This document shows positions 4,481 to 23,755 of a stretch of DNA of 25,656 bases, piece by piece; positions within the stretch are counted from its first letter, which is position 1; each line of letters starts with the position of its first letter. The notes beneath the pieces were generated by a model, which was not told where the DNA came from, made no database searches, and saw nothing but the letters and a program-made list of their open reading frames with translations. The translations under genes were made by a program, and so were the position numbers. Source of the DNA: a virus. The DNA lies in the IMG/VR virus record IMGVR_UViG_3300021600_000024, positions 1-25,656 of that record. The stretch is one strand, 5' to 3'.

Positions 4481-5347
4481 TTAATTAAATAAGTGAAGGT
4501 AATCTTCGTGTTTTTCCCAATAAGAATGTTCTAAGGATAAATTATCTTTTTTGTAGATATTAAAATGTGAAGTGAAGTGAGCACCATGATTTATATGAAT
4601 AGATTGATTCACGGCATTCCATTGTTTTCTTTCCATAGTTTGTGTTTCAATCATACCACTATTAGTTACTAATGCGTTTGGTAATATTTTATTAAAATGT
4701 TCTATTGCATCATCTATTCTCATTGTCATTTGATGCATTGGTTCGTCATTCTGTCCTCTTTCTTGCCAACCATCTCTATTTATTCCACCATAATTCATAT
4801 TTGTCCATACTGCACCTCTTTCAAAATCAGGATAATCAAAATATCCTTCACCATACATTACATCATGCTCTAAAAAAGAAACGTAATCATAGTTACCCAT
4901 TGTGTTTGCTGTATGAATACATTGTAGTATTTGTAACATTTGATTTAAGTGTGATGAACTTTTATTCCAACTAATTATTTCTGTAAATGGATTACTTTGA
5001 ACTCTATTCCATACACACGTTATAATATCAGCTTTATTTTCTGCTGCTTTTTGTATTGTTTCTAAAGATTTTATTACTGCTGGATGATTAGTTTGGTCAT
5101 TTGAATACCATATACCTAAACGATTGTGTGTTGATTTTGGATATACAAATGTTCCACCTTCTACAACACTTTCTGTATATACCTTTCCTTCGAATTCTAA
5201 GAGGACTTCTAAGTGCTTTATTACTCCAACATTAGTATCACCAATAATTGAATTATCTACTCTTAGCGCAACTCTATTACCCTTTATTTTTGATTGTATG
5301 ATATCTGTGCAATCTACTCCACCATATTCTGCTTTAATTATTTCCAT
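4481..5347 (-). CDS. Glycosyltransferase-like protein with N-terminal beta domain (EHD motif)
   Basis: A 288-residue protein. Residues 1-68 (MEIIKAEYGGVDCTDIIQSK, then 'IKGNRVALRVDNSIIGDTNVG') form a beta domain with the 'YGG...DIT..V', 'N...GD...G' pattern of DUF3395-like domains. Residues about 75-288 resemble a GT-A fold: 'HNRLGIWYSNDQTNHPAVIK', a helix 'SLETIQKAAENKADIITCVW', and at 156-165 'VSFLEHDVMY' with E160-H161-D162 in the place of the DxD motif, followed by 'WTNMNYGGINRDGWQERG'. A His-rich end 'SIHINHGAHFTSHFNIY' could provide another metal ligand. It starts inside the end of the previous gene (10-nt overlap), so the two enzymes are probably made together. The EHD form is less usual than DxD, so activity is less certain. 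Confidence 0.65.
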   Translation of the reverse strand: MEIIKAEYGGVDCTDIIQSKIKGNRVALRVDNSIIGDTNVGVIKHLEVLLEFEGKVYTESVVEGGTFVYPKSTHNRLGIWYSNDQTNHPAVIKSLETIQKAAENKADIITCVWNRVQSNPFTEIISWNKSSSHLNQMLQILQCIHTANTMGNYDYVSFLEHDVMYGEGYFDYPDFERGAVWTNMNYGGINRDGWQERGQNDEPMHQMTMRIDDAIEHFNKILPNALVTNSGMIETQTMERKQWNAVNQSIHINHGAHFTSHFNIYKKDNLSLEHSYWEKHEDYLHLFN

Positions 5348-6294
5348 AGTACTGATGTTTTTGCTGTTTCACATATCTCATTCCAATAGTGCCAACTTGC
5401 TGTGTTAGGTGTTATTTGTAAATCTTTATTGTAAGGTAATTCATTCATATATTGTGCTTTATAAAATAGACCTGATGTTGAATTAACAACTCCTGCATTG
5501 TGCATTATGTTCATTTCATTCCAATCTTTTTCAGATGATGTTCCCCAACTGAAATCAAAGTTTTTATGACAGATAGTTTTATTTCCTAATTTCCATCCGT
5601 TCCATAATACTGCCCACATATCTGCACACCATATTTGTAACTCGTGATAAGAAGGGTCTAATGATTTTTTAAAATTATTTAAATCTGAAATTTGTTTAAA
5701 TAGAATTTCACTATCTTTTTCTACATTATCCCAAAAATTATAATTAATTCCTTTCATTAGGTATTGTGCACCAATAGAGTTTAATTCATTTTCTTTAACT
5801 AAATCTTTATCGATATCAACTAATCTACACATTTCACTAAGAACATCTTCACCCTTACCGATAATATAATCATGTCCTATATACCATCTTGTATCACTAC
5901 CATACCAATTTTCATCCATTATCATTTCTTCGGTTATCCATTCACTAATAGGCTTAGTAAATACAATATCTGAATCGTGGTAAAAGATTGCATCCCAATG
6001 AATTTCAGGTCTTGCTTTCCAATGTTGTTTAAGAATGTTAGGACGGATTGATGATATGTAATTTTTAGTTTCTCTTTCATCATCATAAAAGAAAAATCTT
6101 GCTGCATACCCATTGGCTAGTTTTAACCATTCATCAGGTACTACATTGTTTTGCTTCCAACAAACAATATCAACATTATTTAAGTTGATACCTTGCTTTC
6201 TGAAATTGTTTAACATTACCTCTACTTGCCATGCATAGTAAGTTGTTGCGGGTTGTGCTGATACGAATCGTAATTCTCTAAGTGTGATTGCCAT
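5338..6294 (-). CDS. Glycosyltransferase-like protein (GT-A type, DSD motif)
   Basis: A 318-residue protein. Residues about 10-50 have 'RFVSAQPATTYYAWQVEVML' and 'NLNNVDIVCWKQNN', the beginning of a nucleotide-sugar-binding GT-A fold. Residues 103-112 read IFYHDSDIVF, giving D107-S108-D109, the metal-binding DxD motif. Then 'WYGSDTRWYIGHDYI' and, near 175, 'GAQYLM' fit the acceptor region, and 'MHNAGVV' near residue 285 resembles the C-terminal His-containing segment of such enzymes. It is followed by a second such gene with a 10-nt overlap and lies directly after the Thr-rich 935-aa tail gene. It may attach sugars to phage tail proteins or alter host surface glycans. Donor and acceptor are unknown. 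No membrane segment or signal is seen, so it is cytosolic. Confidence 0.75.
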   Translation of the reverse strand: MAITLRELRFVSAQPATTYYAWQVEVMLNNFRKQGINLNNVDIVCWKQNNVVPDEWLKLANGYAARFFFYDDERETKNYISSIRPNILKQHWKARPEIHWDAIFYHDSDIVFTKPISEWITEEMIMDENWYGSDTRWYIGHDYIIGKGEDVLSEMCRLVDIDKDLVKENELNSIGAQYLMKGINYNFWDNVEKDSEILFKQISDLNNFKKSLDPSYHELQIWCADMWAVLWNGWKLGNKTICHKNFDFSWGTSSEKDWNEMNIMHNAGVVNSTSGLFYKAQYMNELPYNKDLQITPNTASWHYWNEICETAKTSVLWK

Positions 6295-6345: not shown

Positions 6346-9153
6346 TTATACTGCACAAATACTAGCACAATTCGTTCCATGTGGTAATGTAGGGTCTAAT
6401 ATAATTGCAACTTGCGGTGTAGTTGTTCCAGTAATTTTGTATAAGTACCCGTCTAAACTAATATCATTATAATAATGAGTAGAAATATATGAATACCCAG
6501 TAGGGAATGCAACCGCTACATCAGTATTTCTTATAGTTGAACAAGGTGGCTCATTACAATTATACTCATTTGCTAAGTAAAAATCATAAGTAGGCCCAGC
6601 CGTAGTTGTAGTTGTTGTTGTAGTTGTTGTTGGTGTACATGTTTCACAATCACCATAATTACTTCCAAATGTTGCATCATCATCTAATCCAGTATTTGTT
6701 GTTGAAAGAACTACCCAACAATTTATACCATTCATAGTTCCTAAGAATGTAGGTGCGTATACTTTATATACTCCACCAACAACAGGAGTTACATCAGTTG
6801 CATTCATTATATAAGTTGAACCACCACTACACAATTGTATTTCATAATAAGTATTAGGAGGTAATGTAGTTGTAGTTGTAGTTGTTGTTGGTGCTGCAGT
6901 AGTTGTCGTAGTAGTAGGTGCTGCAGTTGTAGTAGTTGTAGTACAATTATTACCAAGTAATACCATCGTACTTACTGTTCCTGAAGTTACTAAAACATAT
7001 CTTCCACCATTTGGTTGTGCTGTAAATGTTCTAGCAGTACCACCGGCATCAGTTACTAATGTTGTTACTCCACCGGCAGCTGCCGGTGCACTAGCATATG
7101 TTGTATTATTCATATAGAATGTACCATTACCACCCGCTAATGTATTAATTGTAAGTGTTTGAGTTAAACCAGTACATGTCGCAACCGTACTATAAGTTAT
7201 TGGAGGTAATGTTGTTGTCGTTGTCGTTGTAGTAGTAGTTGTTGGTGTTGCAGTAGTTGTCGTAGTAGTTGGTGCTGCTGTTGTTGTTGTAGTAGTCGTT
7301 GTTGCTGGACAAGTTTGACAACCAGCACTAATTAATGTTGCAGTATTTTGACCAACTGTATGTGATACTCTTAAAGTTTGACCACCAAAACTTAACCAAT
7401 AATTTCCTGTTGCTGTATAATACCATGTATCTCCTGTGAATATTGTTGAATTACAGAATGTAGAACTATTACCTAACATTATAAATTGTACAGGACAACT
7501 ATAACACGCTGATTGTTGGTCACCACCTTCATTACTTATACATACCGAATCATTGAACGGAGCTGCGGTTGTAGTAGTTGTAGTAGTTGTCGTAGTTGTA
7601 GGTGCTGCAGTTGTAGTAGTTGTTGTTGTACTTGTCGTTGTTGTTGTCGGGCATAAAACACCACTACAAATTTCACTTCCTATTCCATTTAAATGAGTTA
7701 CTAAATATGCACCTGCTGCAATAATATCCAATACTTCAAAAATATATCCACTTATAGGGTCTAAATAAAATCCACTATTAGAAGGTAATTCAGTTGTATT
7801 ACTAATATCAATAAATTCTACAAATTCACATCCACTAGGACCACATGCATATCTTACTGCATTATAAGAAAAATTAGGTAATACAGTTGTAGTTGTAGTA
7901 GTAGTTGGTGCTATCGTAGTAGTTGTACTAGTCGTTGTTGTAGGCGCAATAGTTGTAGTAGTAGTTGTACTAGTAGTTGTAGTTGGTGCAATAGTTGTCG
8001 TAGTAGTAGTTGGTGCTATTGTTGTTGTAGTAGTTGTAGTTGGTGCTATTGTTGTAGTAGTTGTAGTTGTAGGTAATGTAGTAGTTGTAGTAGTAGGTGC
8101 AATCGTTGTTGTAGATGTTGTAGAGGTAGTACTCGTTGTACTTGTCGTTGATGTTGTACTTGTCGTTGATGTCGTACTTGTAGTAGATGTTGTTGTAGTT
8201 GTTCCAGGAGTACCACAAGATGCACAATAAACAAAAAGTCTAGCTGCCGAAGTATTTCCTAACCAATTAAATGTAGGTGTACTTTGTGCACATATGCTCC
8301 ATACTGAACTTCCATCAAAGGATTGTGTTACAGCTGTTGCTGTTGTACAATCAATATATGATGCAGTTGCTGCGATTCCCCATGAAGGTCCAAAGCTATA
8401 CGCTACATAATTTAAACATATTCCTGGTTGTGCAGTAGGAACTCTATCTCTACCACAGCTTCCACATTGTCCTAAACCATATGTTTCACTATTAGGGTCT
8501 GAAATTGTAAATAATAATGGTGAAATACTCGATGTTTCATATTGTACATTTACACAATGCACACCACTACTTCCTGTCCAATTATTACTTCCTACTGTTT
8601 GTCCTGCGGATAAAGTTCCATAAATAGCAGGCATTTCAACAACACCTATTATACTTCCAGTTTCTGGTGTACAACAACTATTTACTGCGTAATATCTACT
8701 AGCTGGTGCTGCGGTTGTAGTTGATGTCGTTGTAGATGTAGTAGATGTAGTTGTTGGTGCTAACGTTGTTGTAGTTGTTGTCGTTGGCACTAACGTAGTA
8801 GTTGTAGTTGTTGGTGCTAACGTAGTTGTTGTCGTTGTTGGTGCTAACGTTGTTGTAGTTGTTGTCGTTGGCACTAACGTAGTTGTTGTCGTTGTTGGTG
8901 CTAACGTTGTTGTAGTTGTTGGTGTTGGTGCTATAATATAATGTATTACTTCATTTGTACATACCCCTTTGCTTTTTAATTTAATACATTGAGTATCTTC
9001 AGGAACATTAAGAGATACACTTTGACCTAAATAAGTTAAAGTAACATCCATAGATGCGGTAAACGCAACACAATCAGGCGAATAATAGACAGTATAGTTT
9101 GGCCCTGAACTAATTCCCTGGTCTGTTAATGTTATTGTTGTTACTAAACTCAT
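6346..9153 (-). CDS. Modular tail protein: seven Cys-rich modules on mucin-like Thr linkers
   Basis: A 935-residue protein. Residues 1-75 form an N-terminal beta domain ('SLVTTITLTDQGISSGPNYT' to 'NVPEDTQCIKLKSKGVCTNE'), probably the virion anchor. Then threonine linkers (about residues 76-149, 316-425, 502-531, 616-649, 736-764 and 839-852; units such as APTTTTTT, LVPTTTT and TSTTST) alternate with about seven modules of 65-85 residues. The modules start with a strand and a Cys ('RYYAVNSCC', 'YYEIQLCSGG', 'DFYLANEYNC') and often end in CxxC ('GQCGSCG', 'YCASCG', 'GDCETC', 'GCQTC'). Thr/Pro/Ala composition resembles mucin O-glycosylation regions. The layout suggests a long, flexible adhesin-like fibre. 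The two glycosyltransferase-like genes follow directly. Binding targets are unknown. Confidence 0.85.
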   Translation of the reverse strand: MSLVTTITLTDQGISSGPNYTVYYSPDCVAFTASMDVTLTYLGQSVSLNVPEDTQCIKLKSKGVCTNEVIHYIIAPTPTTTTTLAPTTTTTTLVPTTTTTTTLAPTTTTTTLAPTTTTTTLVPTTTTTTTLAPTTTSTTSTTTSTTTAAPASRYYAVNSCCTPETGSIIGVVEMPAIYGTLSAGQTVGSNNWTGSSGVHCVNVQYETSSISPLLFTISDPNSETYGLGQCGSCGRDRVPTAQPGICLNYVAYSFGPSWGIAATASYIDCTTATAVTQSFDGSSVWSICAQSTPTFNWLGNTSAARLFVYCASCGTPGTTTTTSTTSTTSTTSTTSTTSTTSTTSTTSTTTIAPTTTTTTLPTTTTTTTIAPTTTTTTTIAPTTTTTTIAPTTTTSTTTTTTIAPTTTTSTTTTIAPTTTTTTTVLPNFSYNAVRYACGPSGCEFVEFIDISNTTELPSNSGFYLDPISGYIFEVLDIIAAGAYLVTHLNGIGSEICSGVLCPTTTTTSTTTTTTTAAPTTTTTTTTTTTAAPFNDSVCISNEGGDQQSACYSCPVQFIMLGNSSTFCNSTIFTGDTWYYTATGNYWLSFGGQTLRVSHTVGQNTATLISAGCQTCPATTTTTTTTAAPTTTTTTATPTTTTTTTTTTTLPPITYSTVATCTGLTQTLTINTLAGGNGTFYMNNTTYASAPAAAGGVTTLVTDAGGTARTFTAQPNGGRYVLVTSGTVSTMVLLGNNCTTTTTTAAPTTTTTTAAPTTTTTTTTLPPNTYYEIQLCSGGSTYIMNATDVTPVVGGVYKVYAPTFLGTMNGINCWVVLSTTNTGLDDDATFGSNYGDCETCTPTTTTTTTTTTAGPTYDFYLANEYNCNEPPCSTIRNTDVAVAFPTGYSYISTHYYNDISLDGYLYKITGTTTPQVAIILDPTLPHGTNCASICAV
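6600..7649 (-). repeat. Thr linkers 3 to 6 interleaved with Cys-rich modules
   Basis: Four shorter linkers lie at about 7561-7649, 7207-7305, 6864-6943 and 6600-6638, each 13-34 codons, with Ala-Ala-Pro, Thr-Ala-Thr-Pro or Leu-Pro-Pro breaks. They separate modules 3 to 7 of the 935-aa protein. Linker length falls toward the C-terminus. Confidence 0.8.
7885..8203 (-). repeat. Thr/Pro linker 2 with 18-nt tandem units
   Basis: About 106 codons, the longest linker. The first part is (Thr-Ser-Thr)n built from 18-nt tandem units near 8130-8195. The rest is T5-7 separated by Ile-Ala-Pro or Leu-Pro. Alternating Thr codons suggest selection for the protein sequence, not only slippage. Confidence 0.85.
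8707..8928 (-). repeat. Thr/Pro linker 1 with higher-order DNA repeats
   Basis: About 74 codons of (L/V)(A/V)P-T6-7 units. At DNA level a 47-bp segment at 8753-8799 recurs exactly at 8837-8883 (offset 84), and its first part recurs again near 8894. Such copies point to recent duplication inside the linker. Confidence 0.85.
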
Positions 9154-9161
9154 ATTATATC

Positions 9162-9174
9162 TTTAACCATTATT
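9162..9174 (-). promoter_or_regulatory. Leader element GTTAAAGATATAAT before the 935-aa gene
   Basis: The sequence GTTAAAGATATAATATG runs into the start at 9153, with GTTAAA ending 8 nt before the ATG. The same 17 bases precede the start at 2256, and a close form precedes 4457. The TATAAT touches the ATG, so a promoter -10 is unlikely; a translation-start context is more likely. Confidence 0.4.
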
Positions 9175-9178
9175 TTTA

Positions 9179-10531
9179 TTATAGTGGTGGAACATCCGGA
9201 CAAGTATTATATCCACTCGTATTAATATTTGTAAAATAATCAGGACTTGCAGCAGTTAAACTTATTACATTAACAACCGGTCCCGATAATTCATTGGTAG
9301 CGTAAAATTTACCTATAACTAATCCCATACTATTTAATATTATTACTGTATCAATATTATTACATTCTACATCGTATATATCTACAACATAATTTGTTGG
9401 TGCAGAAGTAGTTGTAGTTGTAGTAGTTCCTGCTGTTGTAGTAGTTGTAGTTGCTGGTGTATTTGAACATGCTGCCAAACAACTATTAAACGGAACATTT
9501 GATAAAATAGTACCTGTATATATTGGAACTACACTTACTAACTCATATGACCATAATGATATTGCGCCAGGTTCTCTATAAAATTTACCAATTACTCCAG
9601 CTCCATTCATTCTAACATATGTATCAAATGCGAAATTACAACTTCCATCACAAACATATGCGTGAGCGAAATAAAAATGGTCTGGTGGTCCTTCTGTTGT
9701 TGTTGTCGTTGTTGTTGGTGCTATTGTTGTTGTAGTACTTGTTGTAGAAGTAGTAGTTGTAGTTGTAGTTGTAGGAGCTCCACAATCTTCACAATTATTA
9801 TATACATTATAAAGAATACTTCCAGTTAAATCTAATGATGCAGTTGATGCTGCAAGTGTATAACAGCCCTCTAATTCACCAGGTGTACCCCATCTTACAA
9901 CTTGTCCAACACTTAATGATGCGGTTGTATCAAATGTTACACCATAATATGTTATTGAATCATCACATTTAGTTACATTCCATTTTGGTATAGCAGTTAC
10001 AATAAAATCAAATTTACAAGCTTCACCAGGTAAAATATATGCTAAGGTATCAGCAATAATTGGTCCTAATAATTGTAAAGTACATTCACCATTACTTAAA
10101 TTATAATTGTTAATTGCTCTTAAATGATAATAGTTACCTCTCCATTCAACAATATCATTAAGGTTTAATTTAAAATAATTTGCTAATGGAATAATTGCTG
10201 AACAATTAATTAATCTAGTTTTAGGATTATATAAAAGGTTTACATAAGTAGACCAATATTCTGAATATAAACTATTAATTGGAGTTTCACCATAAACACT
10301 TTGTTCATTATTAAATAAAAGAGATTTAGAATTTACAGTTGGTAAATTTCCTAAGTAATTATCAAAATATGGAAATGATGTTTGTGGATATGCATCACCA
10401 TAATTATCCTGAATATAAAATGTATCAGTTTCTAATAAACCATTGTAAAAGAATACTCTAGGTAATACTCTTGCGGGTTTGTAATCAATTGAACTGATAT
10501 AAGTTGGTATGTATATTTTTTGTTTAGCCAT
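9179..10531 (-). CDS. Tail structural protein with Cys-rich modules and Thr linkers
   Basis: A 450-residue protein started at the ATG at 10531 (MAKQKIYIPTYISSIDYKPA), whose A is the last base of the upstream TAA; the longer frame to 10558 only adds upstream coding overlap. Residues about 60-160, with 'SLYSEYWSTYVNLLYNPKTR', 'LINCSAIIPLANYFKLNLND' and 'YHLRAINNYNLSNGECTLQL', are the C-terminal domain of the large tail family whose first part is the upstream gene. Then come three Cys-rich modules of 65-95 residues (ending in ILYNVYNNCEDCG, NVPFNSCLAACS and a C-terminal SGYNTCPDV), with threonine linkers around 9695-9773 and 9397-9456. The modules suggest exposed binding domains on stalks. Confidence 0.8.
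   Translation of the reverse strand: MAKQKIYIPTYISSIDYKPARVLPRVFFYNGLLETDTFYIQDNYGDAYPQTSFPYFDNYLGNLPTVNSKSLLFNNEQSVYGETPINSLYSEYWSTYVNLLYNPKTRLINCSAIIPLANYFKLNLNDIVEWRGNYYHLRAINNYNLSNGECTLQLLGPIIADTLAYILPGEACKFDFIVTAIPKWNVTKCDDSITYYGVTFDTTASLSVGQVVRWGTPGELEGCYTLAASTASLDLTGSILYNVYNNCEDCGAPTTTTTTTTSTTSTTTTIAPTTTTTTTEGPPDHFYFAHAYVCDGSCNFAFDTYVRMNGAGVIGKFYREPGAISLWSYELVSVVPIYTGTILSNVPFNSCLAACSNTPATTTTTTAGTTTTTTTSAPTNYVVDIYDVECNNIDTVIILNSMGLVIGKFYATNELSGPVVNVISLTAASPDYFTNINTSGYNTCPDVPPL
9397..9456 (-). repeat. Thr-rich linker B in the 450-aa tail protein
   Basis: About 20 codons, two Thr runs divided by Ala-Gly, between the second and third Cys-rich modules. Confidence 0.8.
9695..9773 (-). repeat. 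Thr-rich linker A in the 450-aa tail protein
   Basis: About 26 codons, nearly all Thr with a few Ser and one Ile-Ala-Pro break. ACA, ACT, ACG and other codons alternate, so it is not a pure trinucleotide run. It joins two Cys-rich modules. Confidence 0.85.
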
Positions 10532-12570
10532 TAGTAGCACCCTCCAAAGTCTGCACAATTATCACCGGTATCAAATTGAACTATACCTGTTAATGTATCT
10601 ATAGCCCAAATATTACATTGAGTACCAAATGGTGCACCTGCATTATTTACGATAGAACTATATCCAACTACTAAATTAATTCCATATGCATCAAAGTATA
10701 ATACTGCACCTGCTTCTATTGCGCCAGTTGATGAGAATATTTCAAAGAATGTTCCATATGCACAAATATTATAAGGATTACCCGTATTTGATAATTGACA
10801 ATTTCCAATAGAGAATGCAATTGGTCCACCACCACTTTGACTTCCACTTACACCCGTACCTTCTAAATAAATTAATGGAGAACTTGCCAATGTAGTTTTA
10901 ACTGTGAAATCTCCTTGTGAAAAGAAATTCTCAGTATCTACATAATATGCTTTACCAAATTCTCTTGCTGCACCTTTAGAAAATTGTTGTGAAATATAAT
11001 CACCATCTAAAGTATCACCAAAGTTTAAGTTTTGAACTGCTAAGTTATTTGCTGGAATTACTTCAATATTACTATTTAAGTTTATGTATTGATTAAAATC
11101 TACAATATTTCCTTGCTTATACCATTCATTAAATGGCTCTACGATAAAATCGCTTAACTTATTTTTATTTTGTTGTATTACTAAATTGAATTTCTTTTGA
11201 ATACCTGCTACAAAATCAATTAATTTAATACCTGATGTTCCGAATGGCATATTAGATGCAATATCCATTATTAATCCCCCACCACCTTGATTTACTTTAG
11301 TTACACTTAAATAAGATTTTGGTTGATTATCAGGATCTAAAACAACTCTAAAATTGCTACCACCCTGATTTGTATATTGTAAATAAAATGAATAAATTCC
11401 TGCAGGTAATAATTCGGAATTCCATTGAGTTAGTAATTCAAAAGATTGTGTTCTAGTTTGTGTTGCATTATATGTTTGAATTTTATCCATATATTCATTT
11501 ATCTGATACAATGGAGATGTAGAAACAATTGTGCCACCATTTTTAATAATTAAATCAAAATGTGGAATACCATTACCTACTGATAAGTTTTGTATTTCAA
11601 AGTTTAAATTAAGTTCACCTCTTATTTTACTATCAAATGATATTGTATAATTTAAATTAGCATCTAAGTTACCACCTGGATTTTGTAGAATATTATACCA
11701 AGGTAATAATATTGGAGTTGCTGCACTCATTGTTACATTTGTTTCACCACTCCCACTAACAGGTCCTATTTTAAATAATCCGTATGTTTCTAAATCAATA
11801 CCATTACCACCACTCGATCCCGATGCGAATATTGGATATCTTAATTTATTATTACAAACTAAGTAAACATTATTTAACCATCCTTGTTCCCAAAATGCTG
11901 ATGTATATGTAAATCCAAATTCTTCAAATATTGCATCCCATACTGCTTTCAATCGAATTGCCGGTTTAAAATCTTCAACTGCCATGGCACCTTCAGGAGA
12001 ATCAATTCCGAAATGAGTTTCTTCTGGTGAAAAAGTTATTTGTTGACCATATTCAGCTAAAGGATATACAATACTACCTGAGAACAAATTGCCACTCCAA
12101 GACGAAGTTATATTTGATAATGAAGCAGTATGATTGTATTGAGCCAATGAGCTCGTTAAATCGGTTAAAAAGTGTCTTTTAAGGTCTCTACCAAAACTTG
12201 CTAATCCACCATAAACTGTTACTTCATATGAATCAATAAATTTATTTGCTAATACATTTACTTTATTTAATTGTAAGTAACCAGCAGATAAATAAATTCC
12301 ATCAAAATCTAAATAACACGGAACTTTTTGATTTGTAGAAAATGTATAAGGGTTTTCAACAGAAATATCATAAACAAATTCAAAGAAATGATTATTCTTT
12401 TTAGTACCAGGTAGGGTAATAGCTTGAGTAAAATCAGATGGTAATACACCCAAATCAAATAGACCTGTGATGTTATTACTAACTTTAATTTCCTCATCTT
12501 TAAATAGGTCTAAGATTTCGCCATCGGCTACTAACTTAAACTTAAAGCCTTGTACTGATGTTACACCCAT
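10531..12570 (-). CDS. Large tail structural protein, N-terminal part of a split family
   Basis: A 679-residue protein. The start (GFKFKLVADGEILDLFKDEE, then 'FDLGVLPSDFTQAITLPGTK', 'NNHFFEFVYDISVENPYTFS' and 'YLSAGYLQLNKVNVLANKFI') matches a tail protein family frequent in Bacteroidota phages that I recall as a single long chain. The N-terminal about 580 residues are beta-rich. The last about 95 residues (from 'IAFSIGNCQLSNTGNPYNIC' to 'DTGDNCADFGGCY') form a Cys-rich module like those of the next two tail genes. The stop overlaps the next ATG (TAATG), and the following gene begins with what is normally the C-terminal part of this family, so the two ORFs look like one protein split at an inserted module. 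Confidence 0.8.
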   Translation of the reverse strand: MGVTSVQGFKFKLVADGEILDLFKDEEIKVSNNITGLFDLGVLPSDFTQAITLPGTKKNNHFFEFVYDISVENPYTFSTNQKVPCYLDFDGIYLSAGYLQLNKVNVLANKFIDSYEVTVYGGLASFGRDLKRHFLTDLTSSLAQYNHTASLSNITSSWSGNLFSGSIVYPLAEYGQQITFSPEETHFGIDSPEGAMAVEDFKPAIRLKAVWDAIFEEFGFTYTSAFWEQGWLNNVYLVCNNKLRYPIFASGSSGGNGIDLETYGLFKIGPVSGSGETNVTMSAATPILLPWYNILQNPGGNLDANLNYTISFDSKIRGELNLNFEIQNLSVGNGIPHFDLIIKNGGTIVSTSPLYQINEYMDKIQTYNATQTRTQSFELLTQWNSELLPAGIYSFYLQYTNQGGSNFRVVLDPDNQPKSYLSVTKVNQGGGGLIMDIASNMPFGTSGIKLIDFVAGIQKKFNLVIQQNKNKLSDFIVEPFNEWYKQGNIVDFNQYINLNSNIEVIPANNLAVQNLNFGDTLDGDYISQQFSKGAAREFGKAYYVDTENFFSQGDFTVKTTLASSPLIYLEGTGVSGSQSGGGPIAFSIGNCQLSNTGNPYNICAYGTFFEIFSSTGAIEAGAVLYFDAYGINLVVGYSSIVNNAGAPFGTQCNIWAIDTLTGIVQFDTGDNCADFGGCY

Positions 12571-14191: not shown

Positions 14192-14773
14192 TTAAGGTGC
14201 TGCTGTTGTTGTAGTTGTGCTTGCCGGCGGACAAGTTGTAGTTATTGTAGAATTAAATGGATATAAATTATATAAACATCTCGGTCTATCGTTATGAGTT
14301 GTTAGTGTAAACGTACACACCCAACCTGCTAATCCATTATTAAATCTATCTGCAAAAGGCTCATTAGTTATTGTATCTAATATCTGAAAACTTTCTAAAC
14401 TATATTGTGTGTATGAAACTAAATCATTTATTATACCCAATGTGTTAGCGTGAATATCTACTGTATCATCAACATCAAAGAAAGGAACTTGCATTGTATT
14501 CTCTCTCGGTGCTGATTCGTTATTCTTATTCTTAATTTTATCTGCTACTATTAATTGTATTTCATATTCAGTTGTACTCAATCCAAAATTAGCACCTAAT
14601 ATACTTACATTACCCAATGGATAAAATTGAAATTGATTATCATCTATATGTGGTATATCACCTTGCGACACACTATCGATAGATGGATGATTAATCATAA
14701 TAGTTTTGAAGTAATCTAATATACTATAATAAAGTGTATAATTGACACCGGCGTTATTCTGTAAATAGCTCAT
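14192..14773 (-). CDS. Neck / tail-completion-like protein with an orphan Thr tail
   Basis: A 193-residue protein. The core (residues about 10-165) has 'YYSILDYFKTIMINHPSIDS', 'VSQGDIPHIDDNQFQFYPLG', 'TTEYEIQLIVADKIKNKNNE' and 'NTLGIINDLVSYTQYSLESF', a pattern of strand-helix pairs I have seen in neck or tail-terminator genes between connector and tail genes. The last residues, CPPASTTTTTAAP, form a short threonine linker of the same type as in the large tail proteins, but the protein stops right after it with no module beyond. That may be a recombination remnant or a docking tail. Which neck protein it is remains open. Confidence 0.7.
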   Translation of the reverse strand: MSYLQNNAGVNYTLYYSILDYFKTIMINHPSIDSVSQGDIPHIDDNQFQFYPLGNVSILGANFGLSTTEYEIQLIVADKIKNKNNESAPRENTMQVPFFDVDDTVDIHANTLGIINDLVSYTQYSLESFQILDTITNEPFADRFNNGLAGWVCTFTLTTHNDRPRCLYNLYPFNSTITTTCPPASTTTTTAAP

Positions 14774-19697: not shown

Positions 19698-22600
19698 TTA
19701 CGATGGGTTTATAATCATATATGCTACTGTATCTGTATCACCATTATGGTCTGATGTTACACTAAATGTTCCACTACCTTTTGATGTTACTGATACTGTT
19801 CCATTACCACTATTAGTGTTAGTTTGTTTAGTTAAGAATATTAAACTATTAGCAGTTACTAATGAATTTGATATCGTTGCAGTACCTGGATTACTACCAT
19901 CTAATACAAATGTTCCTGTTTGTTTATTAGAGCCCGATGGTAAGTATAATTGGTTACTATTATTATTTGATGCTATATAAATACTACTACTTACTATTTG
20001 TGTATTAGTGAATGTATTACTACCTAATGATGCAAATGTAGTTTGTCCGTTTACACTTAATGAGCCTGTAATTCTAACACTACCTGTCGCTGCAATTGCC
20101 GTATTGTTACCAGCACTCGCTCCATTTACTATTAATGCCGGATTACCACCACCTACTGATTGTGAAACATACATTCCTTTATCAACATATACACTTCTAT
20201 TGAATGAGGTATCTGCTTTGAAATCCATTATCATACAGGTACCTAAGTAATCTAAACCTACTTTATTCGCACCACCACCACTACCGGTAATTGTAGAACC
20301 ACTACTCATTGCGAAATAAGTAGAACCTCCACCAGGTAATGATAATGTTCCGTTGGTTTGTAATCCCCATTGGAACTCAGAACCGGTATATGCATTAATC
20401 TGATTTGCTGTTAAGATTACATTGAATGCGTATGGTTGTCCTTGATATTGATAAACTGATAAACCATCTTTACCATAATTAGTATTCCATACACCACTTA
20501 CACTTCCTGTTGATTGTTGATTGTATACGAATGCAGTACTTCCGTTAGATTTTGCTAAGAATGTTGATGCCGTTACGTTACCACTACCATCTATATTAAG
20601 ATTTGAACCGGTGATTGTAAGAGAACCCGATATGTTTACTACCGATGAACTATCAACTGAAAGTGCTGTTTTTCTATTTCCTGTTCCTGTACCTGTACCT
20701 ACTGCAAATATTGTTTTACCACTATCTGCATATAAATTAGTTATATCATTGTTTCTACCAAAGAATGCACTACCACCATTTCCTGCTGCAGCTCCATCAC
20801 TACCTGTCACTATTAAGTTACTACCGAATATAATACTATTTTGTAAATTTGCACTTGCTGTTGTTGATAATGCATTCGTTGCTGTTACAATTCCACCAAA
20901 TAAGTTTCTTTGATATGTTGTTATACCAAAGTTATTGCTACCACTCGCTAAATCTACTAAAGTTGTAGTTCCTAAGTTTAGTGTATTATTAATATTAAAT
21001 CCTGAACCAGTATTGATAGTAAAATCAGGATTGGTTTTATTACCAGTAACTGTAAGATTTCCTGCGTTAACTACTGAACTTAAAATAATAGATGAACTAT
21101 TAGGATTTAATGTTGCTGTTGATACCATAAGACTATTAGCAATTCTAGCAGCTGTAGCATAACCAAATGCATAACTACCTAATGCTAATGAAGATGATAA
21201 ACCAAGTGTATTATTTATTACTGTTACCGTATTGTTTATAGTTGAGTTAGTAAATAGTACAGGTGCGTATGCCGGAGTTCTTGTTGATGGGAATACCGAT
21301 ATATAAGATTGATTTGCTTGTATCTCTGCCCCATTAGTTGCTGCCGCTCTACCATTTAGAATAATATTATTTGAGCCTGATACAATTGAGCTTGCAGATA
21401 CTAATGTGTTTGTAGTTCCAAATATTAAGTTTGCTGGTGATGTTGCTGCCGGAACATATGTTGTATCACCTAATGTATTTGCTAATCTTGCCACTACAAT
21501 AGTATCTCTATTACCATTAAAGGTTGAAGAACTAACATAAGGTAATATCTTTACGCTTTCAATTCCATTATTCTGATAGTTAACTACACTTAATGAAGAT
21601 GATATTGTTTGAGAACCGGTAAATGTGTTTGCTCCTAATGTAGCTCCACCTCCACCACTTCCACCTGCTATTGTTATTGATGCTGTTCCTGCACTTATTG
21701 ATGCAGATACACCCGCACCATTAAAATTAAATGATGTTGCTGTTCCTAATATAATTCCTTCATCTTGTATTTGTGATTGACCACCCGCTGAATTAAGTCT
21801 ACTATTAACACTTGCACTATACGATGCTAAACTTCCTGTTAATTCTGTAAATGATGCACTGCCCGATACACTAATACCTCTTTGGAATTGTGGAATTGGT
21901 TGAATACCACCATTATTAGGACCTACATTCATTATAGGTGTTGTTGAATAATCAGATGTATTATTATCCCAATCTGTTATTTCTGTTCCTATTGCATTTG
22001 TATTTATCCATAATTCATTATCATATGATAAAGTTGCTGCATCAAATGATATTATACCAAATGAAGCAGTACCATTATTAGATGCAATTGTAGTTGAATT
22101 TGCAGCTATATCTGAACTACCACCATTACCTTGTACTGATATAGCTGCGCCTGAGCCACTAATTGTAATGCTTCTTCTACCTATTGTATTTAAACCACTT
22201 GATGCTGCTCCTGAAATTATTAATTGAGGAGTTTGACCCGATGCAGGTCCACTAATTAAAACTCTACTTTGTACTGTTAAATCGTATGCCGCAGATGAAC
22301 TAATAGTTAAACTACCTGTTAATGATTGTGCTGGATTACTACTACTTCCTGTTGTTAAGAAAGAACCCGTATTAATGTTTCCAGCACTACCTGTTTGAAT
22401 ATAAGGTTGTAATGCTGTTGCTACATTTTGGTATGTATCATAAGTTAATATACCACCACTTGTAAATGTTGCTACATAAGAACCTGTATTTTGAATTATT
22501 CCACCTAATGATACATCTATTCCATCTGCGTAGAATGTACCACTTTGATACATACTACCCGTTATTCCTAATCCTCTTCCGAATTGTGGTGCCGGTTGTG

Positions 22601-23447
22601 AACCATCATTTGCACCGATATTTAAAAAAGGAACTGCTGATATATTACCTATTCCATTATCCCAATCTGTTAATTGTATTCCACTATTATCTGCTTGAAT
22701 CCATAATTCATTATCATATGTTGCACCATCCCAAGATATAATACCCATTGATGCTGAATGATTGTTTGCTGCAATAATACCATATGCATCGGATGTATAT
22801 GTTTCTACATTTATTTCAGTTTCATTAAGACTAGCTACATTACCATTATTAAAAACAGCAATTGAGCCACTTAATATAGTTTGACTACCTGTGAATTCTG
22901 AATTACCTCTTACTTTTAATTTACCATTCCATCCCGTATATCCAACTAATACATCACCTTCACCACCATCATCGTTTAAATGTAATATACCACCATTTAA
23001 TGCTGAGAAATATAAATTACCACTTACATTATTTGTTGATATAAAAGAACTGCTAGGGAAAGTTACATTACCAACTATTGTTTGCTCACCTATGAATGTG
23101 TTACTACCCGTTGTTGCAAATGATGAAGTATCTATGTTTCCACCACTACCTGTCACTGCTAATATTCTAGCACTAAAAGATGCAGAATCTGCTTTGTATT
23201 GAGACCCACTAAACGTTTGTAATAAACCTACTGATGTTGATACCGCGTTAAGAGATGATGTAGTTGCTAATCCATCTATTCTACTATCAAAACTTGCACT
23301 ATCTGTTGTGTATACATCTTGATTGACTGTATTAGCGATTGTTGCATCGTTGTAATCTCTTAGAATTGCTGGAGTAATTGCTCCTGCATTATTATTAGGA
23401 AACGAATTATTATTTAATGCTTCTAATTGTTGTTTAGTTAATCCCAT
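19698..23447 (-). CDS. Large repetitive fibre-like structural protein
   Basis: A 1249-residue protein, the largest in the window, rich in Ser, Thr, Gly, Asn and Ala. The start (MGLTKQQLEALNNNSFPNNN, then ITPAILRDYND) is a conserved virion-attachment-like N-terminus I associate with phage fibre proteins. The body repeats beta-solenoid-like units such as 'TGSNTFxGxQTI.S', near residues 113, 185, 610 and 1150. A longer segment, about residues 221-298, recurs at about 446-531 (both have 'DNELWI', 'TDWDN' and 'P.PQF.RG'). The C-terminus (about 1165-1249: GTFVLDGSNPGTATISNSLV to 'VTSDHNGDTDTVAYMIINPS') matches a beta-domain common at the end of phage particle proteins. I see no S74 chaperone peptidase. 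Host binding or a tail-fibre role is inferred. Confidence 0.8.
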   Translation of the reverse strand: MGLTKQQLEALNNNSFPNNNAGAITPAILRDYNDATIANTVNQDVYTTDSASFDSRIDGLATTSSLNAVSTSVGLLQTFSGSQYKADSASFSARILAVTGSGGNIDTSSFATTGSNTFIGEQTIVGNVTFPSSSFISTNNVSGNLYFSALNGGILHLNDDGGEGDVLVGYTGWNGKLKVRGNSEFTGSQTILSGSIAVFNNGNVASLNETEINVETYTSDAYGIIAANNHSASMGIISWDGATYDNELWIQADNSGIQLTDWDNGIGNISAVPFLNIGANDGSQPAPQFGRGLGITGSMYQSGTFYADGIDVSLGGIIQNTGSYVATFTSGGILTYDTYQNVATALQPYIQTGSAGNINTGSFLTTGSSSNPAQSLTGSLTISSSAAYDLTVQSRVLISGPASGQTPQLIISGAASSGLNTIGRRSITISGSGAAISVQGNGGSSDIAANSTTIASNNGTASFGIISFDAATLSYDNELWINTNAIGTEITDWDNNTSDYSTTPIMNVGPNNGGIQPIPQFQRGISVSGSASFTELTGSLASYSASVNSRLNSAGGQSQIQDEGIILGTATSFNFNGAGVSASISAGTASITIAGGSGGGGATLGANTFTGSQTISSSLSVVNYQNNGIESVKILPYVSSSTFNGNRDTIVVARLANTLGDTTYVPAATSPANLIFGTTNTLVSASSIVSGSNNIILNGRAAATNGAEIQANQSYISVFPSTRTPAYAPVLFTNSTINNTVTVINNTLGLSSSLALGSYAFGYATAARIANSLMVSTATLNPNSSSIILSSVVNAGNLTVTGNKTNPDFTINTGSGFNINNTLNLGTTTLVDLASGSNNFGITTYQRNLFGGIVTATNALSTTASANLQNSIIFGSNLIVTGSDGAAAGNGGSAFFGRNNDITNLYADSGKTIFAVGTGTGTGNRKTALSVDSSSVVNISGSLTITGSNLNIDGSGNVTASTFLAKSNGSTAFVYNQQSTGSVSGVWNTNYGKDGLSVYQYQGQPYAFNVILTANQINAYTGSEFQWGLQTNGTLSLPGGGSTYFAMSSGSTITGSGGGANKVGLDYLGTCMIMDFKADTSFNRSVYVDKGMYVSQSVGGGNPALIVNGASAGNNTAIAATGSVRITGSLSVNGQTTFASLGSNTFTNTQIVSSSIYIASNNNSNQLYLPSGSNKQTGTFVLDGSNPGTATISNSLVTANSLIFLTKQTNTNSGNGTVSVTSKGSGTFSVTSDHNGDTDTVAYMIINPS

Positions 23448-23470: not shown

Positions 23471-23755
23471 TTAATATACTATCGTTCCTATATCAAATCC
23501 ATCAGAGAATCCAGAACTAAATCCACCTCTTGTCGCGAAGTGTGCCGGTGCTTCTATTACACCAATACCTTGCGATATCAATGCACCCCCACAACAATCT
23601 CTACTATATTCATTTCTATCTACACAAAGACAACCTCTACGATTATTCTTAGGTGAAGATAAACCTCGTGTAGGTCCTATATAGATACCACTCGCATTCT
23701 GTCTATTGACTGAGTATCTTAGATTACCATTTCTGCTATTAGACCATACTGACAT
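23471..23755 (-). CDS. Small Cys-rich virion-associated protein, unknown
   Basis: A 94-residue basic protein. The middle holds RRGCLCVDRNEYSRDCCGG, giving four Cys in two pairs (CxC and CC) that could bind metal or form disulfides. Before it is YIGPTRGLSSPKNNRRG and after it ALISQGIGVIEAP; the end is Gly/Ser/Phe rich. I recognise the pattern 'GLSSP..RRGCLC.D...YS..CC' from small proteins beside fibre-like genes in uncultured phages, but no function is known to me. It sits just before the 1249-aa structural gene (23-nt gap) and has the GTGGTGTTAAA leader upstream, so it may head a transcription unit. A small head- or tail-decorating protein is a guess. Confidence 0.75.
   Translation of the reverse strand: MSVWSNSRNGNLRYSVNRQNASGIYIGPTRGLSSPKNNRRGCLCVDRNEYSRDCCGGALISQGIGVIEAPAHFATRGGFSSGFSDGFDIGTIVY

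Follow-up and report, generated by a model that had tools for sequence, protein, structure and literature searches.

A predicted glycosyltransferase gene accompanies threonine-rich stalk genes with exchangeable cysteine-rich modules in phages

The 25.7-kb IMG/VR virus record IMGVR_UViG_3300021600_000024, hereafter the window (the whole stretch of DNA that was analysed), encodes two neighbouring proteins of 935 and 450 residues in which small cysteine-rich modules are strung on linkers made mostly of threonine. The gene for a 318-residue protein starts 52 base pairs downstream of the 935-residue gene and belongs to phrog_4417, a family annotated as of "unknown function"; its product is confidently predicted as a GT-A glycosyltransferase. 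Among relatives, threonine linkers and the enzyme gene are found together or not at all, and their adjacency recurs in independent lineages. We consider it probable that the phrog_4417 enzyme O-glycosylates threonine (Thr) tracts of virion proteins, which would produce stiff, sugar-coated stalks carrying exchangeable modules. Because the Thr stalks of this phage group are always accompanied by the enzyme gene, our analysis suggests a mucin-like sugar coat on parts of the virion in many phages. The genes concerned are the following:

5338–6294, minus strand: phrog_4417 protein, 318 residues, predicted GT-A (GT8-like) glycosyltransferase, proposed poly-Thr O-glycosyltransferase
6346–9153, minus strand: 935-residue stalk protein, with the M1 anchor and seven modules on Thr/Pro linkers
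9179–10531, minus strand: 450-residue stalk protein, with a conserved N-terminal domain of about 180 residues followed by module Q1, a linker, Q2, a linker and Q3
10531–12570, minus strand: 679-residue tail-region protein, without a Thr linker and with a single Cys unit (R1) at the C terminus

Thr linkers and the enzyme gene among relatives

Loci of relatives were gathered by means of the 679-residue protein, independently of linkers and enzyme, and loci found by the enzyme were added. A locus entered the resulting table if it extended to the tape measure gene or showed the enzyme, which gave 56 distinct loci; a Thr linker was defined as 9 Thr in 15 residues. Of these loci, 38 have linker and enzyme, 18 have neither, and none has only one of the two. 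On the tree of the 679-residue protein, whose support values come from a quick method, the state of linker and enzyme changes about 10 times, and all eight of eight independent contrasts agree (p = 0.008). The 19 enzyme-free records were also searched whole, and no phrog_4417 gene was found elsewhere in them.

The linkers average 64.5% Thr, 8.7% Pro and 7.9% Ser over 12,884 residues, and are thus Ser/Thr/Pro-rich tracts of the mucin-like kind. Those of the window proteins are about two-thirds Thr, the rest being Pro, Ala and Ser, and in the 935-residue protein 288 of the 935 residues are Thr. Since the Thr codons are synonymously mixed, no codon being repeated more than 4 times in a row (the longest run in shuffles averages 6.8), the linkers are maintained at the protein level and not as a DNA microsatellite. 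In two enzyme-free relatives (L007:12022-13347 and L042:11184-12560), the modules are joined by PPPPP or PPPPPPPP runs in place of Thr linkers.

The predicted enzyme

The AlphaFold2 model of the phrog_4417 protein has a GT-A fold, with a predicted local distance difference test score (pLDDT) of 93. Its best Foldseek matches are UGGT, LgtC and glycogenin, and VIA-align gives Z scores of 14.5 for glycogenin (over residues 5–318), 14.3 for LgtC and 13.2 for GlyE. Residues D107 and D109 are invariant in 178 of 178 distinct sequences, and H265, G268 and K279 in 177 of 177. Because these DxD and H..G....K residues are invariant, a metal and donor site of the GT8-like type would fit the family. The fold and the layout of these motifs are those of the GT8-type enzymes glycogenin, LgtC and GlyE, from which the phrog_4417 protein differs in sharing only 8–11% identity with them. 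GlyE acts in the glycosylation of streptococcal Ser-rich repeat adhesins, not of virions.

Recurrence in unrelated phages and bacterial genomes

Homologs of the phrog_4417 protein with 21–39% identity were found in 74 cultured-phage records among the 50,697 phage records searched, with hosts that include Enterococcus, Staphylococcus, lactobacilli, Lactococcus, Arcanobacterium and Chryseobacterium. In 19 cultured-phage regions, a Thr tract lies on the same strand as the enzyme gene in 18 and on the opposite strand in none, and in 14 it is at most 700 base pairs upstream. Most of these tracts are tails at the C termini of structural proteins. For instance, the major tail protein of phiFL1A ends in ...TTTTTSTTTTTTSSTTTTTTTQASSK, and the major capsid protein of 4995_1 ends in the Thr tail ...TTTTTTKPTTTTTTTQA. 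A comparison of 61 bacterial species loci gave a similar picture for Bacillota, where the 1 kb upstream of the enzyme gene contains a Thr tract in 34 of 35 loci, compared with 46 of 562 random windows. The distant homologs of Bacillota phages lie immediately behind major capsid or tail genes whose products end in TTTTTT.

The converse searches also led to this family. Directly downstream of IMG/VR poly-Thr genes, phrog_4417 is the commonest family (8 of 34, the next family having 2), and it occurs in 14 of 99 viral contigs drawn for a poly-Thr codon run compared with none of 50 poly-Ala contigs (p = 0.003). When other glycosyltransferases were sought behind poly-Thr genes lacking phrog_4417, only 2 of the 34 genes downstream matched GT2. 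Of the 17 contigs that bear the enzyme but no tract next to it, eight hold (ACN)7 at another place, compared with 1 of 44 controls. Poly-Thr without phrog_4417 is common, so that by these counts the enzyme is a better predictor of Thr tracts than they are of the enzyme.

In larger phages (L029/L477 and L492–L522), the enzyme gene lies in a glycosyltransferase-like cassette away from the structural genes, and poly-Thr is found elsewhere in only some of them.

Cysteine-rich modules and their exchange

A preliminary description of the window, made from its letters alone, had proposed about eleven Cys-rich modules, often ending in CxxC, in three neighbouring tail proteins, as diverged copies of a shared module. 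It made no mention of the glycosyltransferase gene next to the stalks, which proved the most informative feature. The three open reading frames at 6346–12570 are present, all on the minus strand, and the Thr linkers between modules of the 450- and 935-residue proteins are real. We cut out 12 Cys-rich units of 72–97 residues, eight in the 935-residue protein, three in the 450-residue protein and only one in the 679-residue protein. Cysteine makes up 48 of their 974 residues (4.9%), compared with 24 of 4681 (0.5%) in twelve other window proteins, and 5 of the 12 units end in CxxC. The 450-residue protein is taken to start at the ATG at 10531, which is backed by homologs; an alternative TTG at 10558 would give 459 residues, and proteins of this type are called 459-type below. 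The parts of the stalk proteins, all on the minus strand, are listed here in the order of translation:

8920–9153, minus: M1, N-terminal anchor module of the 935-residue protein, homologs of which begin most 935-type proteins
8704–8919, minus: Thr/Pro linker 1, 935-residue protein
8452–8703, minus: M2, family F1, C-terminal CGSCG, 935-residue protein
8200–8445, minus: M3, marginal to F1, C-terminal CASCG, 935-residue protein
7876–8199, minus: Thr/Pro linker 2, 108 residues, 935-residue protein
7645–7875, minus: M4, family F2, 935-residue protein
7297–7560, minus: M5, no family link in the window, homolog in L099, 935-residue protein
6934–7197, minus: M6, orphan with 2 Cys, 935-residue protein
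6628–6855, minus: M7, family F1, 935-residue protein
6349–6591, minus: M8, family F2, predicted beta-rich, 935-residue protein
9770–10000, minus: Q1, family F1, 450-residue protein
9461–9682, minus: Q2, family F2, 450-residue protein
9182–9397, minus: Q3, marginal, with an 81% identical copy in another gene of L008, 450-residue protein
10534–10824, minus: R1, C-terminal Cys unit of the 679-residue protein, separate family

The units were compared by iterated hidden Markov model searches over related loci, followed by profile-profile alignment (hhalign). In the first comparison, where shuffled controls peaked at 8.2% probability, M8 was linked to Q2 (97.5%), M7 to Q1 (84%), M4 to Q2 (54%) and M2 to Q1 (20%). 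This gives a family F1 of Q1, M7 and M2 (40 sequences) and a family F2 of Q2, M8 and M4 (13 sequences). In the comparison of merged families, where unrelated real fragments peaked at 1.36 and 0.94, F1 and F2 showed no link (hhalign probability 0.3, within the range of those fragments), and M3 and Q3 were marginal (16% against controls below 1.4%). The conserved units M1 (at the start of 935-type proteins) and R1 (at the end of 679-type proteins) each form a separate family, and M5 and M6 were linked to no other unit of the window. A single module family was therefore rejected against both kinds of control. As some pairs are similar and others are not, the modules belong, by profile comparison, to several families, at least two repeated ones plus single units. 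That the units keep the same frame, which the preliminary description had counted in favour of shuffling, carries little weight, as they all share the same open reading frames. Searches of Pfam and PHROGs with the modules gave nothing useful.

Only the M7–M8 part of the 935-residue protein was folded, full-length alignments having put modules in the wrong places. In the joint M7–linker–M8 model, M8 is predicted to be beta-rich, with a pLDDT of about 90 over most of its length, and M7 is poor. Neither Foldseek nor VIA-align found a convincing relative of this model in the PDB, none exceeding a Z score of 4.2.

The shuffling of modules that had been suggested for the window holds up among its relatives, in which copies of M2 to M5, Q2 and Q3 sit in different genes. 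The closest copies of M2, M3, M4 and M5 are all in 459-type proteins, with the M2–M3 pair in L013, M4 in L016 and M5 in L099. Copies of Q2 occur in 935-type proteins and in relatives of the 193-residue protein described below, and in L008 copies of M2 and Q3 stand together in a separate 377-residue gene. Each gene keeps a conserved anchor (the N terminus of 459-type proteins, M1 or the body of 679-type proteins), with the variable region behind it. Because close copies occupy different genes in related phages, the comparison supports the view that small domains are shuffled among neighbouring tail genes. A few of 98 representative linker-borne domains of relatives match glycine-rich, LamG or Lcl_C families. 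A second 459-type protein, at L111:13331-14830, resembles a leucine-rich-repeat (BspA-like) domain by eye in its C-terminal part.

Proposed mechanism and alternative explanations

We propose that the 935- and 450-residue proteins are virion stalks, in which a conserved anchor is followed by exchangeable Cys-rich modules with Thr/Pro linkers between them. Before or during assembly, the phrog_4417 enzyme would move a sugar from a nucleotide-sugar donor onto linker threonines, the proposed type of acceptor being a poly-Thr peptide such as TTTTTTTT. The glycans would stiffen and protect the linkers in the manner of mucins, and the modules, which probably bind receptors or surfaces, would be held away from the tail and could be swapped without refitting the rest. 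The binding domains and the adhesion organ of the preliminary description are likewise putative. The 288-residue protein encoded next to the enzyme, with its lectin-like N terminus, may extend or guide glycosylation, and the same enzyme family would decorate the Thr tails of major capsid and major tail proteins in unrelated phages. The sequences and models show the make-up of the stalks, the module families and their shuffling, the predicted fold of the enzyme with its conserved motif, and the recurrent pairing of enzyme and Thr tracts in independent lineages; enzyme activity, Thr as the acceptor, the sugar, and any part in stiffness, protease resistance or adhesion are inferred.

Several observations weigh against this proposal. 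Neither the phrog_4417 protein nor its family (25 close and 8 distant members) matches a Pfam glycosyltransferase model, including GT8 (PF01501), for which reason we call it GT8-like rather than filing it in the GT8 family, and no NCBIfam model recognises it. With the linker threshold lowered to 8 of 15 residues, two enzyme-free loci (L042 and L043) turn Thr-positive, of which L042 proves on reading to have a poly-Pro run and no Thr linker; many loci are fragments, so that single cells of the 56-locus table could change. LP65 lacks a Thr tract despite a weak homolog (21%). No (ACN)7 occurs anywhere in 9 of the 17 enzyme-bearing contigs without an adjacent tract, which may be incomplete, and 85 of the 99 poly-Thr viral contigs, many of which are fragments or rely on other solutions, lack phrog_4417, so poly-Thr does not require this enzyme. 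Finally, most Bacteroidota chromosomal homologs are without an adjacent Thr tract; they are longer proteins, and several are near genes for small peptides with GG-type leaders. The family thus has other uses besides Thr tracts, and the Bacteroidota context would be consistent with a peptide substrate of another kind.

The best alternative to glycosylation of the Thr tracts is that the glycosyltransferase acts on host surface glycans or on phage DNA, in superinfection exclusion or anti-restriction, and only shares the late operon with the stalk genes. Phage glycosyltransferases are known to act in such ways (PMC12619734), and some phrog_4417 homologs lie away from any Thr tract. However, enzyme and Thr gene are linked in fibre stalks, in major tail proteins and in capsid proteins alike, and in each of these three structural settings the Thr gene lies directly upstream. 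Linkers and enzyme also switch state together in every one of the eight contrasts, and hitch-hiking would not give a capsid gene a Thr tail beside the enzyme; we regard this explanation as rather improbable. It seems to us very unlikely that the Thr tracts are unmodified flexible spacers, or products of DNA slippage, beside an incidental neighbour. Such a view could draw on the low complexity of the linkers, on their differing length between relatives and on the majority of poly-Thr contigs that are without phrog_4417, but the codons stand in a more varied order than shuffling gives, contrary to slippage, and the co-occurrence is perfect over 56 loci and holds in all but one of the 35 Bacillota loci.

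A further alternative, which concerns the modules, is that one shuffled family of binding domains is spread over the three proteins. Two families of three modules each, with copies that move between genes, go some way in this direction. Nevertheless, the lack of a link between F1 and F2 and the separateness of M1, R1, M5 and M6 refute the one-family version at the sequence level, and LamG, Lcl_C and glycine-rich domains are borne on the same linkers in relatives, so that we think this alternative unlikely.

Among the Bacteroidota chromosomal loci, seven (L399, L402, L403, L406, L410, L413 and L422) have homologs close to small peptides whose leader is of the SLKNLNLKEVEQLSREQLKNVLGG type and whose cores are rich in S, T, G and C, and one of them also holds the start of a C39-type transporter. 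These loci could possibly make glycosylated peptide natural products.

Thr tails past stop codons

Several phages encode the Thr tail beyond the stop codon of their structural gene. It is in the -1 frame after a CCCAAAA heptamer in Planchet and in the Lacticaseibacillus prophage L440, in the -1 frame after other A-rich sites in VPE25, nattely and the Listeria prophage L430, and in the +1 frame at CCC-TAA in SA2 and TPWB06. The candidate slippery sites at such tails are CCCAAAA before TAG, and CCC-TAA. Tails past the stop and in another frame were seen at L121:9892-10035, L440:5890-5994, L383:8462-8617 and L389:8387-8548, and likewise at L430:3029-3214, L119:11649-11927, L123:11660-11923 and L441:5769-5927. 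These arrangements suggest that the tails are reached by programmed frameshifting, for which Listeria phage PSA, with programmed frameshifting in its capsid and tail genes, is a precedent. In the bIL285-type capsid gene, NDKTTTTTTRHD follows in frame past the TAA (L381:9953-9988 and L387:8693-8728) and resembles the Thr tail KNSKTTTTTTTTTRHD of a downstream structural gene; here stop readthrough is possible. Because Thr tails lie past the stops of structural genes, the arrangement suggests that a minority of subunits may be decorated. We would put at about even chances the broader idea of a widespread system in which phrog_4417 enzymes recognise Thr tracts on stalks and on tail-tube and capsid C termini, with the number of decorated subunits set by -1 or +1 frameshifting or by readthrough.

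Relation to known systems

Mycobacteriophage virions are glycosylated by phage-encoded glycosyltransferases, with glycans at the C termini of capsid and tail tube subunits, according to PMC12619734, which cites Freeman et al. 2023. The system proposed here would be similar in its use of phage-encoded enzymes, whereas these would act on stalks or poly-Thr tracts, to the genes of which the enzyme gene is physically linked. No mycobacteriophage is among the genera that match phrog_4417 in the phage records searched. Mucins and Ser-rich repeat adhesins also have Ser/Thr/Pro-rich stalks that bear binding domains and are served by dedicated glycosyltransferases; in contrast, the stalks considered here belong to phage virion proteins, are mostly poly-Thr, and their glycosylation is only proposed. 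Modular phage tail fibres share the conserved N-terminal anchors and variable C-terminal modules, and differ from the present arrangement, in which two to four adjacent genes ahead of the tape measure gene encode several small Cys-rich modules on Thr stalks.

In the open-licence papers searched, we found no work that ties poly-Thr tracts of phages to glycosylation, nor any account of a glycosyltransferase family tied to such tracts in phages of at least two host phyla and probably under recoding control. The Thr-tract passages of a survey of phage low-complexity regions (PMC6821194) do not mention glycosylation. Our proposal gives a testable function to a phage family of "unknown" role that is present in tens of cultured and many uncultivated phages, and it turns poly-Thr tails and stalks from a puzzling low-complexity feature into a predicted enzyme substrate. 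If it is true, virion glycosylation would be much commoner than the mycobacteriophage cases imply, with a bearing on the resistance of virions to proteases and antibodies, on their sticking to surfaces and on the swapping of modules without refolding problems.

Neighbouring genes and setting of the window

The late genes of the window are on the minus strand, where portal, head and tail genes are followed by those for the 387-, 679-, 450- and 935-residue proteins, then by the 318- and 288-residue genes, and then by the tape measure protein (677 residues) and others. By the 679-residue protein, the closest cultured relatives are the Nonlabens phages P12024L/S (24% identity), so a Bacteroidota host is likely. 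Two further features touch on the stalks or their enzyme:

4481–5347, minus strand: 288-residue protein, with an N-terminal rhamnose-binding-lectin-like domain and a C-terminal part with a conserved LEHD
14195–14233, minus strand: short Thr tail ...CPPASTTTTTAAP at the C terminus of a 193-residue protein (14192–14773)

The N terminus of the 288-residue protein matches 5h4s (E = 1.6e-9) and CSL3 (E = 1.7e-5) by hmmsearch, and the protein is without a Pfam match. Because its first 70 or so residues hold a single Cys, which departs from the disulfide cysteines of SUEL-type domains, we call the domain lectin-like only. Of the loci in the table, 20 of the 38 with the enzyme also have this gene, and all those without the enzyme lack it. 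As a known glycosyltransferase (labelled GT288), the protein was rejected, the only match being that of its lectin-like N terminus; it is possibly a second glycosyltransferase or a glycan-guided partner. Homologs of the 193-residue protein have full Thr stalks with modules in some relatives.

Elsewhere in the window, a 1249-residue protein (19698–23447) has a K1-lyase_C domain at its C-terminal end (Pfam PF24146, E = 3.6e-11), a match from which it may be an additional tail-spike-like protein of this phage. A 94-residue protein (23471–23755) holds the Cys-rich stretch RRGCLCVDRNEYSRDCCGG.

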